Shown: one piece after another, positions 574 through 15,073 of the stretch
Layout of the letters: each line of letters begins with the position of its first letter
Position numbering within the stretch: position 1 is the first letter of the stretch
Assembly: GCA_028876065.1 (NCBI GenBank)
Contig: JAGWTI010000023.1
Span: 1-40,191, forward strand
Source of the DNA: Nitrospirota bacterium
GTDB taxonomy: Bacteria > Nitrospirota > Nitrospiria > Nitrospirales > Nitrospiraceae
Length of the DNA stretch: 40,191 nt
Reading direction: 5' to 3'
Program-made: the position numbers and the translations under genes
Notes under the pieces: model-generated
What the model was told of the DNA's origin: nothing
The model's input: only the letters and a program-made list of their open reading frames with translations
Databases searched by the model: none

Positions 574-607
574 ATACTTGACATCATGTAATGGATCGTG
601 GTACATG
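574..607 (+). promoter_or_regulatory. Promoter with overlapping dyad before the HTH-molybdate regulator
   Basis: A perfect -35 hexamer TTGACA lies at 578-583, inside ATACTTGACA (574-583). A weak -10 (TACATG, 602-607) follows at a spacing of 18. A perfect 6-bp inverted repeat, CATGTA (585-590) and TACATG (602-607) with 11 bases between, fills the space between -35 and -10. That is where an autorepressor would bind. The likely start codon at 618 lies only a few bases after the predicted transcription start. The half-site does not match the ModE box I remember. Confidence 0.5.
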
Positions 608-617
608 GCGGACCGTT

Positions 618-1802
618 ATGGGAGAAAAGAGCAAAGCGGAACCGGCCAGTAATATCGAGAACCGGCTGCGCGCCTTGCGTACCGCCAAGGGTCTCTCGCA
701 AGGAACGCTGGCCGGGATGGCCGGGGTCACCCGGCAGGCCATTTACGCGATCGAGGCCAACCAGTACCTGCCCACGACGGCGGTGGCGCTGCGCCTGGCC
801 GGGGCGCTCGATTGCCGGGTGGAGGATTTGTTCAGCCTCATTGCCGGAGGGGAGATCGTCGAAGGGGAATTGGTCGGCTCGCTTCCGGCCGATCCGGCCC
901 AGGCCCGCGTCAAAGTGGCGAGGGTTGGGAGCCGCCTGTTGGTCAGGCCGGTTGCAGGGTTGGGGGAAGTGTTGAACTTTACCGTCCCGGCCGACGGGCT
1001 GCTCGTGGGGGCGGCCACCGCGTCACGTCGGACCGTGCGGGAGGGGGATCGCGTGCGGGTCCGGCTCCTGAGAGATCGCCGGATCGTGGACGAGGAGATT
1101 GTCGTGGCCGGGTGCGATCCCGCCATCTTTCTGGCCGGAGACTATCTTCGCCGCCGGCAGGGCCAGACCACGGTCGTCGAATGGTCCATGGGGAGTTCTG
1201 CCGCCATGGACGCGCTCAAGCGTGGAGAGGTGCATGTGGCCGGTCTCCACATCGTGGACCCCAAGTCGGGCGAATCGAACCTGCCCTATCTGCGTCGTCA
1301 TTGGAAGGGACCGGAGGTGCAAGTGGTGACCTTTGCCTCCTGGGAGCAGGGCTTGATGGTCAGGCACGGCAATCCGAAGGGCATCAGCGGGGTGGGCGAT
1401 CTGGCGCGCAAGGATCTGGTCTTGATCAATCGCGAGGCAGGGGCCGGCGCGCGGCTGTTGCTGGACCAGAAGCTGGCGGCGGCCGGTATCAAGGGCGACC
1501 AGGTCAAGGGGTATCAGCGAAGCGCAGGCTCTCACCTGGAGGTGGCGCGGTTGATCGCCGAAGGACAGGCGGATGTCGGAATGGGTGTGCGGTCTGCCGC
1601 ACGCTTATTGGGGCTGGAATTTCTGCCGTTGCAGGAGGAACGGTACGACCTGGTCATTCCTGCGCGATATTTCTCCGACCATCCGGGATTGGAACAGTTG
1701 CTGGACATCTTGGTCAGCCGCCCCTTCCGCACCGAAGTCGAAGCATTGGGCGGATATGATATGCGTGAGGCCGGAAAGATTCGGCAATGGCAGGCAAGGT
1801 AA
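618..1802 (+). CDS. One-component regulator: XRE-type HTH fused to a periplasmic-binding-protein-like (molybdate-type) domain
   Basis: The protein has 394 residues. Residues ~13-74 form an XRE/Cro helix-turn-helix (LRTAKGLSQGTLA, then VTRQAIYAIEANQYLP). After a linker of ~90 residues with beta-rich character, residues ~175-390 match the substrate-binding-protein-like domain of the COG1910 family (MGSSAAMDALKRGEVHVAG, the HGNPKGI turn, NREAGAGARLLLD). Known members are cytoplasmic one-component sensors that bind molybdate or tungstate and control mod genes. There is no signal peptide, which agrees. I prefer ATG 618 because the -35 at 578-583 would place transcription start just before it. ATG 591, nine codons upstream, has no ribosome site and lies inside the promoter. 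It heads the molybdate island and ends 37 bases before the next gene. The ligand is inferred from family and context. Confidence 0.8.
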   Translation: MGEKSKAEPASNIENRLRALRTAKGLSQGTLAGMAGVTRQAIYAIEANQYLPTTAVALRLAGALDCRVEDLFSLIAGGEIVEGELVGSLPADPAQARVKVARVGSRLLVRPVAGLGEVLNFTVPADGLLVGAATASRRTVREGDRVRVRLLRDRRIVDEEIVVAGCDPAIFLAGDYLRRRQGQTTVVEWSMGSSAAMDALKRGEVHVAGLHIVDPKSGESNLPYLRRHWKGPEVQVVTFASWEQGLMVRHGNPKGISGVGDLARKDLVLINREAGAGARLLLDQKLAAAGIKGDQVKGYQRSAGSHLEVARLIAEGQADVGMGVRSAARLLGLEFLPLQEERYDLVIPARYFSDHPGLEQLLDILVSRPFRTEVEALGGYDMREAGKIRQWQAR

Positions 1803-1839: not shown

Positions 1840-2685
1840 ATGATCAGCCATCGGGTACGGCAACTGGCAGCTATTGCGCTCGTCTTTACCGTGGCATTTG
1901 GCATATTCGATGCCTCTATGGCGATTGCCGAAGAGTCATTGGTGATCCTGGCCTCGCCGAGTTTGAAAGCGCCCCTGGAGGCCCTGGGACACGGATTCGA
2001 GGCGACACACCCACACGTCAAGGTGCAGATTCACTATGACTCGGGCCTGGGGCTGCGCCAGATGATCGCGACCATGCAAAACTCCGGACGGCACTTTATC
2101 GGATCGGGACCGGTCCACATCATTGCGCCGGCAGGCCTGGAGTTGCTCGAGCGGTTGGAACAACGATATTATGTGTTGCCTGGGACTCGGAAAGCCTATG
2201 CGGCGGTGCCATTGGTCTTGGTGGTGCCTGAGTCTCTTGCGGACGCGCATACGTCATTCGAAGCGTTCGCGCACGATCCGAGCAAGCGGTTGTCCGTCGC
2301 CGACCCGCAACGCACGGAACTGGGGCTGCGAACGGAGGCCTTCCTTCAAGGCATCGGTGTCGTGGATGCGTTGAAGGGGCGGCTGGATGAAGCCCACGAC
2401 GCTCGTGGCGTGATAGATCATGTGCTGAACGGAGAAGCCGATGCCGGCATCGTGTTCGGGTCTGATGCGGTTCGAGAGCGGGAGCGGGTCCGCGTTGTCG
2501 CGACGTCAACGGAAGAGACGCACCGCCCCATTGTCTATTGGATGGCTATGGAACGGTTTTGTCCGAATCGTGCGCTCTGTGAAGCGTTCCTCGATTTTAC
2601 CCAGTCTCAAGAGGCGCAGGCCATTTTGACTCGTCTGGGATATGGCTCGCCCGCCAACGTTGCTACCGCCCAAAATCCGCAATAA
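1840..2685 (+). CDS. ModA-like extracytoplasmic solute-binding protein (divergent)
   Basis: The protein has 281 residues. ATG 1840 follows a strong ribosome site (GAGGAGGGTGGAG, 1825-1837). A signal peptide covers ~1-30 and ends near MAIAEES. The mature part starts with the beta-strand LVILASPSLKAPLEAL, which is the ModA opening, and has the two-lobe type II binding-protein pattern, including GEADAGIVFGSDAV and a final FLDFTQSQEAQAIL helix before a conserved GYGSP end. The ligand loop that in ModA reads SSG is here DSGLGLRQMI, and the GAPxDxFxSAD motif is replaced by GPVHIIAPAG. It may therefore bind another oxyanion, or deliver molybdate with different affinity. It could serve the same ModB/ModC permease as the canonical ModA at 6663. 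The family is clear; the ligand is inferred. Confidence 0.75.
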   Translation: MISHRVRQLAAIALVFTVAFGIFDASMAIAEESLVILASPSLKAPLEALGHGFEATHPHVKVQIHYDSGLGLRQMIATMQNSGRHFIGSGPVHIIAPAGLELLERLEQRYYVLPGTRKAYAAVPLVLVVPESLADAHTSFEAFAHDPSKRLSVADPQRTELGLRTEAFLQGIGVVDALKGRLDEAHDARGVIDHVLNGEADAGIVFGSDAVRERERVRVVATSTEETHRPIVYWMAMERFCPNRALCEAFLDFTQSQEAQAILTRLGYGSPANVATAQNPQ

Positions 2686-2944: not shown

Positions 2945-3003
2945 ATCGCGCGTCCAATTCGAGCCAATCGGTGTACGCGATGAACAAGGATGAGGAGGCT
3001 GTT

Positions 3004-3678
3004 ATGCGAATCATGCGGAACAGGCGGACCGGACGATGGAGGATCCTGGCGGCAGTCATTCTTCTGTTCGTTGACCTGGCCGGGATGGAAGGCTGCGCGC
3101 GTTTGCCCATCACGACCAAGGTCGTTCGAGAAGATGCGCGCGTGGTGGTGAAGCTCCAACAGGAGGTGGATCGGACCACCTATTCCCACCCGGTCACGCT
3201 AGGCCAGCAGGATATTGCCGCCATCTTGAAGGGCTTTTCGCTTCGTGAAGACCGAGGTCCGCTGCTGCGGTGGTATCAGGAAGATATCCCCCCCATTCCG
3301 GTCTTTCGCGACGATGAAATAGAGGCATTGGTGCCGGCGCTCGTCGAGGCGTTGCAAGGGGCCAAGGTCAATGAGCGAGTTGCCTTTGAAGTGCGAGCGC
3401 CCGGCAATGATCCCCGAGAGGAACGCGAAGTAACCGCAGGGTGGCTGGCGATCAGGGACCCGTACTTCCATCTCACAGTCGAGTTCCACCACGCACAACT
3501 CCCCACGCGCAAGTCGATGACCTATGAGCGCTATTACCCCACGCCGCCGCCTGCACCGAAGAGCTTCAGTTTGTACTTCGAGCCGGGAAGATTTTGGGTG
3601 TTGGACAAAACGTTTGGCGAACGCGTGGTGGACTTTCGAGGCTTTCTGCAATCTGCGCCGGTTCCGCGAAAGAACTGA
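3004..3678 (+). CDS. Putative outer-membrane or periplasmic lipoprotein, unknown function
   Basis: The protein has 224 residues. ATG 3004 follows GAGGAGG six bases upstream, so it is preferred over upstream in-frame starts. An N-terminal arginine-rich segment (RIMRNRRTGRWR) and a hydrophobic stretch (ILAAVILLFVDLAGMEGC) precede a cysteine, an acceptable but imperfect lipobox (MEGC). The mature part starts ARLPITTKVV and is mixed alpha/beta. A proline-rich segment (YYPTPPPAPKSF) leads into a final beta segment. I do not recognise a named domain. It lies 60 bases before the porin gene, probably in the same transcript, so a role in assembling or assisting that outer-membrane channel is possible but unproven. 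Confidence 0.7.
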   Translation: MRIMRNRRTGRWRILAAVILLFVDLAGMEGCARLPITTKVVREDARVVVKLQQEVDRTTYSHPVTLGQQDIAAILKGFSLREDRGPLLRWYQEDIPPIPVFRDDEIEALVPALVEALQGAKVNERVAFEVRAPGNDPREEREVTAGWLAIRDPYFHLTVEFHHAQLPTRKSMTYERYYPTPPPAPKSFSLYFEPGRFWVLDKTFGERVVDFRGFLQSAPVPRKN

Positions 3679-3738
3679 CGCAGCCGATCGCATTGTCGCC
3701 TTTTTGATGTGGGCTTCTATGTCGGTAAAGGAGGGCTC

Positions 3739-5484
3739 ATGGTGCGCTGCGGAATACAGGACAAGGTGGATAAGATTCCCACGGGGCTCGCTCGGTATGT
3801 GATAGCTCTCGCTGCCCTAGTTGGCGCCGTGATCACTGTCGATGTTGCCGAAGCAGTGGACTCAGGCAAATTAATCGAGAAAGACGGTCAGCATGTGTTT
3901 GTGGAGAGCCAAGACCCGGCCGTCAAACTCTTGCTCGAACGGTCGTTGAATAAGGGGCTCATTACGCAGGATGAATATGACCGGGTTCTCAAGGAATCGG
4001 AAACCCATGCCTATCTGAATAAACCGTCTTTTAACGCCTGGTATGACCGCGGCTTTAACATTTCGACGAACGACAATGCGTTTTTGCTCAAGATTCGTGG
4101 ATTGGTGCAGATGCGATCCACCCAGCGGTTTCGCAATAATGCCTGGCGCACGGACGGCGACGGCGCCAACTTCCCAGAACTGCTGGGCGTCTTCGGAGAC
4201 TACCGCGCCAACCGGGCCCAGAGCGATTCGACGGGGTTTAATTTGCGGCGGGTCCGGCTGGCTTTCATGGGGCATCTGTTCAGTCCTGATTTTCAATACA
4301 TGGTCCAACTCCGTGCGGAGACCGCAGAGAATGCCCAGTCTCCCGGCAGTGCCCAATTGGCCGATTACTATGTGACCAGCCGCCACCTCCCCTGGGCGAA
4401 CCTGCAGGTGGGGCAGTACAAAGTATATTTCAACCGAGCCCAGATCAACTCCACCGCCTCGATGCAGTTTCCCGAGCGGGCCTTGGTCATGGATGCATTC
4501 ACCGCCAGCGGTCTGGACCGACGGGATATGGGAATCACGTTCCTAAACGATGAAGAGCTCTACCCGGTCAACTATTACTTCGGCGTCTTCAACGGGGCCG
4601 GCCCAAGCTTTAACCGCATCGGCGCGTTTACGAGCGAGGAGCCGACCAACAATTGCCCCGGCGGTGCCGTCAGTGGGAATCCGTATCCCTCTCCGCAAAA
4701 TTGTCCGAGCAGCCAGCGCGATCTTAATGCGAATCTCAGGACCAATATCAACCAACTCATGTATACGGCTCGCTTGATGTGGAACGTTATGGGCAGGCCC
4801 GGCTACGGAGAAGGGGATATCGCCTATTCCGAAATGCCTCAAATGGCCATCGGCGGGGGCTACTCCTATAACCCTGCCATCAACGCCAATTCCAATCAGG
4901 GCTACGTCGGCATTGACTTAGCCAATCTTACCTTTCGACGCCAGTTGGCTGCCTTCGGCAACGCCCGGCAACTGGGATGGGGCGTGTTGGATTTTTCGAC
5001 CTGGAACCTCGATTACGTGTTCAAATATCGAGGGTTTTCTCTGCAAGCCGAGTATTATTTTAAGAACGTGACGCGTCATGACAAGGGCCTGCCTTGCATG
5101 GTCGGAGGCACAACGGGATCTCCGACATGCACTGCGCGTGCCCCTGGACTGTTGGGGAATGCCACCGGCTGGTATGTGCAGAGCGGGTATTATCTGATTC
5201 CGCGAAAGGTAGAAGCGGCCGCTCGCTTCGCGTACTGGGACCCGGACACGCACTCCGGCGGAGACTTGGTCAAGGAGGTAGACGTTTCACTCAACTGGTT
5301 CTTAAACGATACCTATGACCATTCCATCATGTTGGAATACTACAACGTTCAGATGGGCACGGGAGGGTATCTTCTCGGGCGGAGCAACCCCCTCCCAAGT
5401 GTATCCGGGGCGGTGGCACTTGATAGCAGGGGCCCCTTGTTGATCGAGAACGGAATCCGGCTCCAGTATCAAATCTTTTTCTGA
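3739..5484 (+). CDS. OprO/OprP-type outer-membrane porin, candidate oxyanion channel
   Basis: The protein has 581 residues. ATG 3739 is chosen because AAAGGAGGG (3727-3735) precedes it and a signal peptide then fits (hydrophobic YVIALAALVGAVITV, cut near AEAVDS). Residues ~45-75 form a short helical element, LLLERSLNKGLITQDEYDRVL, typical of the N-terminus of phosphate-selective porins. The rest alternates amphipathic strands ending with the C-terminal YQIFF, where a terminal Phe is the usual signal for the Bam machinery. Strand motifs such as FNLRRVRLAFMGHLFSPDFQYMVQL are typical of Porin_O_P. Four cysteines fall in two loop regions (TNNC/PQNC and LPCM/SPTC) and could form surface disulfides. 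Family members pass phosphate or pyrophosphate. The molybdate neighbours suggest an oxyanion such as molybdate, which is inference. Confidence 0.8.
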   Translation: MVRCGIQDKVDKIPTGLARYVIALAALVGAVITVDVAEAVDSGKLIEKDGQHVFVESQDPAVKLLLERSLNKGLITQDEYDRVLKESETHAYLNKPSFNAWYDRGFNISTNDNAFLLKIRGLVQMRSTQRFRNNAWRTDGDGANFPELLGVFGDYRANRAQSDSTGFNLRRVRLAFMGHLFSPDFQYMVQLRAETAENAQSPGSAQLADYYVTSRHLPWANLQVGQYKVYFNRAQINSTASMQFPERALVMDAFTASGLDRRDMGITFLNDEELYPVNYYFGVFNGAGPSFNRIGAFTSEEPTNNCPGGAVSGNPYPSPQNCPSSQRDLNANLRTNINQLMYTARLMWNVMGRPGYGEGDIAYSEMPQMAIGGGYSYNPAINANSNQGYVGIDLANLTFRRQLAAFGNARQLGWGVLDFSTWNLDYVFKYRGFSLQAEYYFKNVTRHDKGLPCMVGGTTGSPTCTARAPGLLGNATGWYVQSGYYLIPRKVEAAARFAYWDPDTHSGGDLVKEVDVSLNWFLNDTYDHSIMLEYYNVQMGTGGYLLGRSNPLPSVSGAVALDSRGPLLIENGIRLQYQIFF

Positions 5485-5555
5485 GCCAATTGTGGGTGGC
5501 CTGCGGGATTGGCGACGGTGGTGTGTCGGTTATGCCGCAACAATAAGGAGGCAGT

Positions 5556-6419
5556 ATGCTCCGGCCAGAGAGTGTCAACGGGCGGGATCAGCAAAACAAC
5601 GAGGAGCCTCAGAGCCCGACGACTGATGGAGGGCAGGCGATGCTCACATGGAACACCGTACCCGGAATGGTCGAGTCCGTCCATCAGGGGCTGACCAGAA
5701 CGGGGATTCACGTAAGAATCGGGCGACATGCGACGGTCCGTTTTCGACTGCCGTCCGACATCGGTGTATTTTATGACATCCGGGTTGGCCAGATGGTCAC
5801 CGTCAAAATTCCCGCTGCCGCTGTATTGTTGGCCGTGCCGGGCACATGGCCGGGTATGGATCGGTGGAATCGGTGGACCGGTCGCATCGTTCTCGTAGGG
5901 CCGGGGACGGCATCCCCTCTGATCACGGTGAAGGTGCAGGGCGAGCAGTGGACGCTCAAGAGCTGTGGGCCCGTGCTAGGATCGGACCGACAGCCGCGCA
6001 CATGGGAGCATGTGAATATCGTCGTCGATCCGGCGCGGGTGAAATTTCGTCGTTCACCGCCTGGCGGCAGTGCGCAAATGCCTACGCCCGCAACCGTTCG
6101 CTCCCAAGGTCTCATCGGGGGACGGGTGTGGTTGAAGGGGGTGGTGCAAGCCATCCGACAGGTTCCGACCGGATGGCTTCTATCGCTCGACGTCGGCGGG
6201 GCCCATGTCTCGGCTTTGGTATGCACAGAAGCCGGACTGCCCTGGCAATTGATGCCGGGTGCGCAAGTGGAGGTTCACATCGGCCAGTGGGAAGCCTGGA
6301 TCAAACCTTGCGGGATAGACAGGGAACCTGTTCAGTGTCGGTTGCTGTATCAGGACTTAGAGCCGAGCGGTGGCAGTAGGTATAGTCGAAGTCCAACGAT
6401 GATGAGGTCTATCGAATAG
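5556..6419 (+). CDS. Stand-alone protein with tandem TOBE/Mop-like OB folds
   Basis: The protein has 287 residues, with ATG 5556 after TAAGGAGGCAGT. A second in-frame ATG at 5640 also has GGAGGG before it. There is no signal peptide or membrane segment, so it should be cytoplasmic. Residues ~35-92 resemble the TOBE domain of ModC (GMVESVHQGLTRTGIHVRI, then LPSDIGVFYDIRVGQMVTV, ending KIPAAAVLLA). A second unit (~105-170, WTGRIVLVGPG to VNIVVDPARVKF) and a third (~187-262, LIGGRVWLKGVVQAI to MPGAQVEVHIGQWEAWI) repeat the strand layout more loosely. TOBE and Mop domains bind molybdate or tungstate in ModC, ModE and molbindins. I know no family with three such units and no ATPase or HTH, so the triple count is my reading. 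A Mo storage, delivery or sensing role is inferred. Confidence 0.6.
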   Translation: MLRPESVNGRDQQNNEEPQSPTTDGGQAMLTWNTVPGMVESVHQGLTRTGIHVRIGRHATVRFRLPSDIGVFYDIRVGQMVTVKIPAAAVLLAVPGTWPGMDRWNRWTGRIVLVGPGTASPLITVKVQGEQWTLKSCGPVLGSDRQPRTWEHVNIVVDPARVKFRRSPPGGSAQMPTPATVRSQGLIGGRVWLKGVVQAIRQVPTGWLLSLDVGGAHVSALVCTEAGLPWQLMPGAQVEVHIGQWEAWIKPCGIDREPVQCRLLYQDLEPSGGSRYSRSPTMMRSIE

Positions 6420-6662: not shown

Positions 6663-7475
6663 ATGTTCCCAATGAACGTCGTTCCGCTCTCGTCGGTGAT
6701 CCGATACATCTGCGTCGCGCTCGCGGTCGGACTCGTTGCGCTGGGAGGGATGCAACCATCGGTTGCCGCAGGCAACGACCTGACCATCGCTGCCGCGTCC
6801 GACTTGAGTTTTGCGTTTAAAGACCTGGTCGCGGAGTTCGAAAAGGCCAGTGGCACGCACGTCAAGCTTTCCTTGGGCTCGTCGGGTAACTTCTTTTCGC
6901 AGATCCAGCATGGGGCTCCCTACGATCTCTATTTTTCTGCTGATGTTCGGTATCCACAAAAACTGGAACAGACCGGTTATGCGGTGCCAGGGACCCTGTA
7001 CAAGTATGCAGTTGGGCGGATCGTGGTCTGGACGCCCAAGAGTTCCCCGCTGGATGTGGAGAAGCTTGGCATGGAAGCGTTGCTGGCTCCATCTATCAAG
7101 AAGATCGCCGTTGCCAACCCGAAGCATGCCCCATACGGCCGCGCGGCGATTGCAGCGATGGAGCATTTCAAGATTCACGACCGGGTCAAGGATAAGCTTG
7201 TGCTGGGAGAGAATATCTCCCAGGCGGCCCAGTTCGTCGAGTCGGGCGCGGCCGACATCGGAATCATCGCGTTGTCACTGGCGTTGGCTCCGGCGATGAA
7301 AGAAGCAGGCCAGTATTGGGAAGTTCCTGCGGATGCGCATCCCCCCTTGGAGCAAGGGACTGTCATCCTGACGAGCGCCAAGAATCCTCCAGCCGCGAAG
7401 GCCTTCCTGGATTTTCTGAAAGGGCCCCAGGGGCGGGAAATCATGCAGCGCTACGGTTTTGTTTCCCCCAGTTAA
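6663..7475 (+). CDS. modA: Molybdate ABC transporter, periplasmic binding protein ModA
   Basis: The protein has 270 residues. ATG 6663 follows GGAGAAA. A signal peptide covers ~1-37 (hydrophobic YICVALAVGLVALGG, cut near SVAAG). The mature protein begins DLTIAAASDLSFAFKDL, the canonical ModA start, and has the oxyanion-binding SSG loop (LGSSGNFFSQI) followed by HGAPYDLYFSAD. The second lobe contains VANPKHAPYGRAA and ESGAADIGIIALS, and the end is FLDFLKGPQGREIMQRYGF. It binds molybdate (or tungstate) in the periplasm and hands it to ModB. ModB and ModC are encoded 1.3 kb downstream in the same direction, with three accessory genes between. Family identity is secure; preference for Mo over W cannot be read from sequence. 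Confidence 0.93.
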   Translation: MFPMNVVPLSSVIRYICVALAVGLVALGGMQPSVAAGNDLTIAAASDLSFAFKDLVAEFEKASGTHVKLSLGSSGNFFSQIQHGAPYDLYFSADVRYPQKLEQTGYAVPGTLYKYAVGRIVVWTPKSSPLDVEKLGMEALLAPSIKKIAVANPKHAPYGRAAIAAMEHFKIHDRVKDKLVLGENISQAAQFVESGAADIGIIALSLALAPAMKEAGQYWEVPADAHPPLEQGTVILTSAKNPPAAKAFLDFLKGPQGREIMQRYGFVSPS

Positions 7476-8509: not shown

Positions 8510-8713
8510 ATGAAGCTCAGCGCAAGGAATCAATTTCAGGGCACAGTGACGCACATCACACAAGGGCAAGCGATGGCTGAGGTGATCATCAAAGTCGGCA
8601 ATCTGGAGTTTGTGGCCGCCATCACGGAAGGCTCCGTCAAAAATATGGGGCTCAAAGTGAATGATGCGGTGACGGTTGCGGTCAAAGCGACCGAGGTCAT
8701 GGTCGGAAAATAA
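8510..8713 (+). CDS. mop: Molbindin (Mop), molybdate-binding protein
   Basis: The protein has 67 residues, the normal size for a single-domain Mop, and ATG 8510 follows CCAGGAGGC. The start KLSARNQFQGTVTHI and the later GSVKNMGLKVNDAVTVAVKATEVMVGK match the Mop/TOBE consensus (SARNxLxGxV, then LGLKxGxxVxAxIKAxxV). Molbindins assemble into hexameric rings that hold several molybdate or tungstate ions and buffer the cytoplasmic pool. The gene lies 77 bases before modB. The assignment is firm. Confidence 0.93.
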   Translation: MKLSARNQFQGTVTHITQGQAMAEVIIKVGNLEFVAAITEGSVKNMGLKVNDAVTVAVKATEVMVGK

Positions 8714-8790: not shown

Positions 8791-9465
8791 ATGAATTGGG
8801 TGGCAATAGGGGTCACGCTCAAATTGGCCATGCTGACGTCTCTGATCCTGGTCGTGATCGGGTTGCCGTTGGCCTACTGGCTGAGCTTTTCCCGCTGGCG
8901 TTGGAAATTCCTGGCCGAGTCGGTGGTGGCGCTTCCCTTGGTGCTGCCGCCGACCGTCCTGGGGTTCTACATTCTTGTCGCGATCGGGCCCCGCAGCCTG
9001 TTTGGGCAGTTCTATACGACCCTCGTCGGACATCCCTTGCCGTTCACCTTCGAAGGGCTCCTGCTTGCGTCAGTGCTCTATAGTTTCCCGTTCGCCGTGC
9101 AACCCTTTGCCGCCGCCTTCGAGCAAGTGGATCGTCGCCTCATCGAGGCCTCGTGGACGTTGGGCGTATCCAGATGGACTACTTTCTTCAAACTGATCGT
9201 TCCGATGTCCACGGCGGGGATCGTCACCGGCGCCGTGTTGAGCTTCGCGCATACGCTTGGCGAGTTTGGCGTGGTCCTGATGGTCGGCGGCAACATCGAA
9301 GGCGTGACGAGGACGGTCTCGATTGACATCTACGACGAGGTCCAGGCGCTCAATTATGCGGGAGCCGCCAAAACCGCCTTGTTCCTGCTGGTCGTGTCCT
9401 ACGGGGTCTTGCTGGGTGTCTATGCCATGAACCGGAAGGTCTGGGCCGTATGGCCGCAGAAGTAA
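8791..9465 (+). CDS. modB: Molybdate ABC transporter permease ModB
   Basis: The protein has 224 residues, the usual ModB length. Five or six hydrophobic segments are visible (MLTSLILVVIGLPLAYWL, VVALPLVLPPTVLGFYILVA, LLASVLYSFPFAV, AGIVTGAVLSFAHTLG, TALFLLVVSYGVLLGVYAM). The EAA loop that contacts the ATPase reads IEASWTLGVSRWTTFFKLIVP. LALPLVLPPTVLGFYLL-type motifs are characteristic of ModB. It forms the inner-membrane channel through which molybdate released by ModA enters. Its last 16 bases overlap modC in another frame, so the two are translationally coupled. Confidence 0.95.
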   Translation: MNWVAIGVTLKLAMLTSLILVVIGLPLAYWLSFSRWRWKFLAESVVALPLVLPPTVLGFYILVAIGPRSLFGQFYTTLVGHPLPFTFEGLLLASVLYSFPFAVQPFAAAFEQVDRRLIEASWTLGVSRWTTFFKLIVPMSTAGIVTGAVLSFAHTLGEFGVVLMVGGNIEGVTRTVSIDIYDEVQALNYAGAAKTALFLLVVSYGVLLGVYAMNRKVWAVWPQK

Positions 9466-10547
9466 CCGTCGATATTGCCAAGGCCTTTCCCGGTCGCCTG
9501 ACGGTCCGTGCGTCCTTCCGCATGGCCTGCGGGCTTCCCGAAGTTCTGGTGCTGTTCGGGCCGTCCGGTTCCGGAAAGACCACCATCCTGCGCTGCCTTG
9601 CCGGGCTCGAATGGCCGGACCAGGGAAGCATTCGATTCGGCGACGACGTCTGGGTCGATACGGCCTTGGGCGTCTCGCGTCCCCCTCAAGCACGGCAACT
9701 GGGCTACATGTCCCAGGACTATGCCCTCTTTCCGACCTATTCCGTATCGGGAAACATCGCCTATGGACTGGGCGCTTTGTCGGAGTGCGAGCGGCAGCAG
9801 CGCATCAACGACATGGTGATGTTGCTCCAATTGCAGGGGACGGAGGATGCACGGCCGGCTCAATTGTCTGGGGGGCAGCAGCAACGAGTGGCGCTCGCCA
9901 GGGTGCTGGCGAGACGGCCCCGCTTATTATTGCTCGATGAGCCGTTGTCGGCGCTCGATCTTCCGACGCGATCGAAATTGCGGGGCGAGCTTCGATCGTT
10001 GCTGAAGCAGTTGGCCATCCCCTCGATTGTCGTGACGCATGATTGGGAAGAGGCGCTGGCGCTGGGCGATCGGATGGTCGTCCTTCGAGAGGGACGGGTC
10101 TTGCAGGAAGGCACTCCGCAGCAGGTGTTCAATCGTCCGTTGGATGCGGAGGTGGCCAAGATCGTCGGCATCGAGACGGTCATGCCGGGCCGGATTGTCG
10201 AGGCGGCTCAGGGACTCGTCACGGTTGAGGTGGCCAACCAGAAGCTGGTAGCGATCGGCAGCGAGGAGGTTGGGCCGGACGTCTTTGTGTGCATCCGCGC
10301 CGAGGACATCCTGTTGGAAACGGTCTTGATCGGCACGACGAGCGCAAGGAATCGGCTCGCCGGAACCGTGCGTGAGGTTCAGCCGATGGGGGCGCTCGTG
10401 CGCGTCGGGATCGACTGCGGTTTCTCACTCTCAGCCATGGTCACCCGCTCAGCCGTTGCGGATCTGCATCTCTCCCCCGGCGCGTCCGTCGTGGCCGCGA
10501 TCAAGGCCGGCGCCGTACACCTTGTGCCGCGACACAACAATGCCTGA
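9450..10547 (+). CDS. modC: Molybdate ABC transporter ATPase ModC
   Basis: The protein has 365 residues. The ABC domain shows Walker A GPSGSGKTT (~37-45), a Q-loop (YMSQDYALF), signature LSGGQQQRVALARVL, Walker B LLLLDEPLSALD and switch His in VVTHDWEEA. The C-terminal ~130 residues form the regulatory part, with one TOBE/Mop-like domain (NRLAGTVREVQPMGALVRVGI to SPGASVVAAIKAGAVHLV). ModC dimers hydrolyse ATP to drive ModB, and the TOBE part can bind molybdate and inhibit uptake. The ATG at 9450 lies inside the end of modB. It is the last gene of the island. Confidence 0.94.
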   Translation: MAAEVTVDIAKAFPGRLTVRASFRMACGLPEVLVLFGPSGSGKTTILRCLAGLEWPDQGSIRFGDDVWVDTALGVSRPPQARQLGYMSQDYALFPTYSVSGNIAYGLGALSECERQQRINDMVMLLQLQGTEDARPAQLSGGQQQRVALARVLARRPRLLLLDEPLSALDLPTRSKLRGELRSLLKQLAIPSIVVTHDWEEALALGDRMVVLREGRVLQEGTPQQVFNRPLDAEVAKIVGIETVMPGRIVEAAQGLVTVEVANQKLVAIGSEEVGPDVFVCIRAEDILLETVLIGTTSARNRLAGTVREVQPMGALVRVGIDCGFSLSAMVTRSAVADLHLSPGASVVAAIKAGAVHLVPRHNNA

Positions 10548-14997: not shown

Positions 14998-15073
14998 TGG
15001 TGGCGGTGGAGGGTATCGAACCCCCGACCCGCGGCTTATGAGTCCGCTGCTCTACCAACTGAGCTACACCGCC
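14998..15073 (-). tRNA. tRNA with anticodon CAT (elongator Met, or Ile2)
   Basis: On the minus strand the acceptor GGCGGTG (15073-15067) pairs fully with CACCGCC (15008-15002). The D-arm GCTC/GAGC, the anticodon loop CTCATAA, the T-loop TTCGATA and an encoded CCA end (15000-14998) are all present, 76 bases in total. The G1-C72 pair excludes an initiator tRNA. The last anticodon-stem pair (31-39) is an A-G mismatch, so only four canonical pairs remain there. A CAT anticodon can read AUG, or AUA if lysidine-modified; identity cannot be settled by eye. Confidence 0.93.

Follow-up and report, generated by a model that had tools for sequence, protein, structure and literature searches.

Proteins that consist of one or two TOBE units alone are known, and they are classed as storage proteins. 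One or two units are also the common architectures described in a gut survey (PMC11980592). The single-domain molbindin Tub has two type-1 and six type-2 anion sites; the type-1 sites lie on the three-fold axis and are formed by main-chain groups of residues 20–22, and the type-2 sites are formed by Ser4, Arg6 (main chain), Ser40, Lys60 and Ala61 (PMC11980592). In ModG of Azotobacter vinelandii (1h9j, 1h9k, 1h9m), which stands alone, two Mop OB units follow each other, and each trimer binds eight molybdates (PMC11980592). Pairs of OB units also form the di-Mop domain of ModE (1h9s, 1h9r) and the C-terminal TOBE domain of ModC (3d31).

Nitrite oxidation in Nitrospira needs a molybdenum enzyme, nitrite oxidoreductase, and molybdenum supply is therefore central to these bacteria; a paper search found little literature on molybdenum homeostasis in Nitrospira. 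Here we describe a protein encoded at 5556–6419 of the window, the whole 40,191-nucleotide stretch of DNA that was analysed, whose family offers a specific handle on this process. Like ModG, the protein stands alone and carries two Mop-like OB units in the same order, and both are linked to molybdate metabolism. Unlike ModG, it has a third OB unit and has lost the type-2 ligands. Stand-alone multi-Mop proteins are already known from ModG; what is new here is the combination of three units with lost type-2 ligands.

The operon around the three-unit gene

The genes of the operon follow one another in the order below, with two small proteins encoded between ModA 2 and the canonical Mop.

591..1802, + strand: regulator with XRE-type HTH and PBP_like domains, start of the operon (Pfam)
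1840..2685, + strand: ModA-like binding protein 1 (TIGR01256, above cut-off)
2971..3678, + strand: small conserved protein without a Pfam family, exported or lipoprotein-like (the latter judged only by eye)
3709..5484, + strand: Porin_O_P porin (Pfam)
5545..5551, + strand: Shine-Dalgarno-like AAGGAGG, 4 nt 5' of the ATG (sequence)
5556..6419, + strand: three-unit OB-fold (TOBE/Mop-like) protein, 287 aa (ORF; Pfam TOBE above cut-off; AlphaFold2 model)
6663..7475, + strand: ModA 2 (TIGR01256, 213.6 bits)
8510..8713, + strand: canonical single-domain Mop (molbindin), 67 aa, with all type-2 ligand residues (ORF; TIGR00638, 62.1 bits, cut-off 55)
8791..9465, + strand: ModB permease (TIGR02141, 229 bits)
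9450..10547, + strand: ModC ATPase with a canonical C-terminal TOBE unit (PF00005 and PF03459)

The position between a porin and ModA, reported in an earlier note on this DNA, is confirmed: the Porin_O_P gene lies upstream and ModA 2 downstream. The note missed the canonical Mop at 8510–8713 (+), which is placed between p206 and ModB, and it also missed the loss of oxyanion-binding residues described below. A second start of the 5556–6419 reading frame, at 5640 (Met29), likewise comes with a GGAGG. The regulator at 591–1802 resembles TaoR in its HTH plus PBP-like architecture (PMC11980592) and is kept at the head of the operon in relatives. The operon thus has two ModA-like proteins, and the one encoded upstream of the porin, at 1840–2685 (+), is divergent. 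In several relatives (L032, L034, L043, L052, L056) there is a second porin-ModA-lipo triple. A scan for promoters and terminators gave results no better than shuffles, and no Rfam element was found within the operon; a tRNA gene lies at 15001–15073 (–; Rfam RF00005).

Three OB units and their closest folds

The Pfam TOBE family (PF03459) matches residues 33–91 at 31.2 bits (E 2.6e-7), where the curated cut-off is 22.3 bits, and this match is confined to unit 1. The NCBIfam Mop family (TIGR00638) matches residues 193–240, in the region of unit 3, at 17.1 bits (E 0.0042), below its cut-off of 55 bits. Pfam and NCBIfam find no ATPase domain (no ABC_tran match) and no HTH in the protein, in agreement with the earlier note; it thus differs from ModC, which has an ATPase, and from ModE, which has an HTH DNA-binding domain. 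By eye, the N-terminus carries no hydrophobic signal, and we therefore take the protein to be cytoplasmic. Its three units are as follows.

5646..5846, + strand: unit 1, TOBE/Mop OB fold, aa 31–97 (PF03459; canonical-Mop profile; ModG domain 1 in the structural match)
5847..6059, + strand: unit 2, OB fold, internal repeat of unit 1, aa 98–168 (unit 1–unit 2 profile match; ModG domain 2)
6114..6353, + strand: unit 3, OB fold, weakly Mop-like, aa 187–266 (models; TIGR00638; profile)

Unit profiles were built from relatives in 30 of the 175 genomes of the window's taxonomic family, and a canonical reference profile from 71 canonical Mop and ModC units. Between the family profiles, unit 1 matches unit 2 at E 1.3e-6 and the TOBE unit of ModC at E 1.5e-8; the ATPase part of ModC, compared with unit 1 as a negative control, gives E 0.52. 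These comparisons, with their control, rule out a chance resemblance. Against the canonical reference, the E values are 2.5e-9 for unit 1, 5.3e-5 for unit 3 and just 0.013 for unit 2.

The AlphaFold2 model of the protein has a mean pLDDT of 80.6, with values above 90 over most of the three units. Its strands fall into three high-confidence beta units (residues 32–93, 105–166 and 192–264), the last of them preceded by a low-confidence linker. Residues 29–167 of the model, comprising units 1 and 2, superpose on Azotobacter ModG (1h9m) in its entirety, over 137 residues at 2.4 Å (Z 17.8), with a sequence identity of 14–17%; Foldseek matches the model to ModG at E 3.1e-8. The model and this match rule out an unrelated fold. 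Other structural matches of units 1–2 are the ModE di-Mop domain (Z 16.7–16.9), ModBC (15.3) and the ATPases of MalK-type sugar importers (about 9–12). From a viral fold library came only spread-out matches of low TM.

Unit 3, modelled alone, is an OB fold. Sporomusa Mop and Tub are among its best Foldseek matches, at E values above 0.1, and in the structural comparison ModG and ModE stand on top at Z 7.2, tied with other OB folds. A single TOBE unit with unrelated extensions is ruled out for unit 2 by the repeat and the structure, and unit 3 is predicted to be an OB fold with high confidence. We conclude that the fold and the family relationship, a molbindin like ModG extended by a third OB unit, are well supported, and that the descent of unit 3 from Mop is moderately supported. 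The earlier note had proposed a stand-alone protein with up to three TOBE/Mop-like folds, the first resembling the TOBE unit of ModC and the others repeating it loosely. Pfam, the profiles and the model bear this out: profile and structure comparison count three OB folds, and the third is weakly Mop-like.

The likeness to ModC raises the question whether units 1–2 derive from its C-terminal TOBE pair and act in trans, as an orphan regulatory domain that inhibits or gates the importer. In addition to the profile match of unit 1, the 3d31 C-terminus accounts for the ModBC score quoted above. In relatives the gene nearly always stands in a molybdenum or oxyanion locus, directly behind ModC in one clade, but in most members it is the porin, not modC, that directly precedes it. 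As ModG is also the better structural fit, we give this reading little probability.

Anion sites and proposed role

The type-2 ligands of ModG are the Ser of a SARN motif, a Thr or Ser in the beta3 turn and the Lys of an I/VKA motif. In the 71 canonical units, the Ser4 position is Ser in 70, the beta3-turn Thr is kept in all 71, and the Lys59 position is Lys in 70. The three-unit family looks different. At the Lys59 position, unit 1 has Pro in 20 of 29 sequences, unit 2 has Asp in 20 of 31 and unit 3 has mostly Gly, Asp or Ser; Lys is found in 0/29, 0/31 and 0/21, respectively. The Ser4 position is not kept as Ser. For units 2 and 3, the alignments behind these readings are weaker than for unit 1. 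The type-2 oxyanion side chains, which make up the six buried sites of Mop, are lost from all three units. The single-domain molbindins Mop and Tub (1fr3, 1gug, 9beb) share the OB unit and the type-1 loop position with unit 1; unlike them, the protein has three units without Ser4/Lys59-type ligands, and it coexists with a canonical Mop in its operon.

Two conserved motifs lie in units 1–2.

5688..5699, + strand: GLTR, aa 45–48, at the type-1 (three-fold) anion loop of ModG/Tub (structural match to ModG)
5862..5885, + strand: family signature RWNRWTGR, aa 103–110 (N105 in 29/29, W107 in 28/28, R110 in 26/28)

Residue numbers in the structural match differ from those of ModG by 26, at its start as well as at its end. 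With this constant offset, G45-L46-T47-R48 falls on residues 19–22 of ModG, the type-1 loop. In the window-type subfamily A the loop has Gly in 18 of 19 sequences, Leu in 18 of 19 and Arg at position 48 in 15 of 19, with Gln, Lys or His otherwise; the R48 column ranks just 34th among 137. The type-1 loop position, whose ligands are main-chain groups, is thus retained in unit 1 with the conserved sequence G-L-x-R, and it may still bind an anion.

We asked how these observations bear on storage, since the earlier note had suggested a new kind of molybdate storage, carrier or sensing protein and had proposed a check for oxyanion-binding residues. That check found the type-2 ligands absent. Their loss, together with the canonical Mop of the same operon, which already covers storage, argues against storage of the Mop kind, and ModG provides a precedent for the architecture. 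The storage or carrier part of the suggestion is thereby weakened, and sensing or an adaptor role is the favoured reading. A true store or carrier of molybdate or tungstate would have to use non-canonical sites, either the type-1 poles or new arginine-lined pockets. The ModG fold, the molybdenum operon, the basic units 1–2 and their many conserved arginines are consistent with such a protein; however, in the ModG scheme type-1 poles alone amount to at most two sites per trimer (PMC11980592), and with the type-2 ligands lost across the family and a canonical Mop at hand, we consider it unlikely.

The charge of units 1–2 suggests another possibility. They are strongly basic, with a pI of about 10 in most members, and many further arginines are conserved in them; these would suit binding of a polyanion or RNA equally well. 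OB folds are often nucleic-acid binders, and in two three-unit loci the next gene, directly behind, encodes an OmpR-type Trans_reg_C protein (L040 7271–8188, L049 8624–9562). The protein could therefore be a regulator of the operon that binds RNA or DNA through its basic units. Yet it has no HTH, and its closest folds are ModG and the ModE di-Mop domain, well above nucleic-acid-binding OB proteins. A regulator of this type seems improbable to us.

Based on these observations, we tentatively favour a divergent molbindin of ModG fold that has turned from a store into an accessory of molybdenum uptake, as a sensor or adaptor. The retained three-fold loop and the fixed place beside the porin, ModA or ModC suggest such a role, and a low-capacity sensor or adaptor is the likeliest form because the type-2 ligands are lost and the type-1 loop is kept with an arginine. 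The protein, encoded in the molybdate-uptake operon of a Nitrospira, has two Mop/TOBE OB folds in tandem, as ModG does, and a third OB unit; it would be cytoplasmic and, by analogy with ModG, probably forms a trimer through its OB units. It has given up the side chains of the six buried type-2 sites, the basis of storage in Mop and ModG, and has kept the three-fold loop of unit 1, now with a mostly conserved arginine. Cytoplasmic molybdate, or a related anion, may be read at this arginine-ringed site with low capacity. The protein may also, or instead, dock on ModC, at its TOBE domain, or on the canonical Mop and so tune uptake through the porin and ModABC. Counting against this reading are the incomplete conservation of R48, the dispensability of the gene described below, and the many arginines, which suit a polyanion or RNA just as well. 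A more specific version is rather doubtful: a ‘pseudo-molbindin’ of the Nitrospira lineage that has abandoned storage and serves as a molybdate sensor or as a trans-acting adaptor coupling the outer-membrane porin module, the canonical Mop and the ModABC importer.

Relatives, architecture and selection

Outside the window's family, the only relative is in one genome of another family of the same order (G395), and none was found outside the order in a sample of 395 genomes of the phylum. A contig search with the protein as single query gave no matches; with an 11-row alignment it gave ten loci, whose titles all read Nitrospira sp. or Nitrospirae bacterium. The G395 relative has all three units, and its locus encodes an Alginate_exp porin, the three-unit protein, a canonical two-Mop protein, ModA and an ABC ATPase with a TOBE unit.

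Three genus-mates have the same operon without the gene, which is therefore dispensable. The porin itself occurs in 76 of the 175 family genomes, so that the protein is an accessory. Genes with three units, with units 1–2 only and with unit 3 only are all seen at the same operon position. A tree of units 1–2 has two strongly supported groups, the window-type subfamily with 20 rows and a diverged subfamily of paralogues with 9; its branches are long and call for caution. Because the G395 relative has three units as well, three units are probably the old state, from which the shorter forms arose by loss, with horizontal transfer as an alternative.

Frameshifted or truncated copies are found at L048 1728–2243, L059 9188–9364 and L051 12903–13109, where assembly error is possible; on this reservation, the gene would be in the course of loss in some lineages. 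We considered whether the family as a whole is a decaying, functionless molbindin, in line with these copies, the patchy presence in 30 of 175 genomes and the gaps among genus-mates. Several observations point the other way. Pairwise dN/dS among close relatives is mostly 0.14–0.41, indicating purifying selection, the reading frames are intact, the signature is strongly conserved and the operon position is constant. Decay is accordingly very improbable. Here a Mop fold without its classical oxyanion ligands has stayed under selection next to a canonical Mop, which makes the question ‘store or regulator?’ directly testable. Short proteins of another kind, not found in the window's genome, occur in the mod loci of relatives (L039 8828–9220, L042 8013–8417, L050 1845–2261 and others); they combine an excisionase-like N-terminal HTH, recognized by eye, with one canonical Mop unit.
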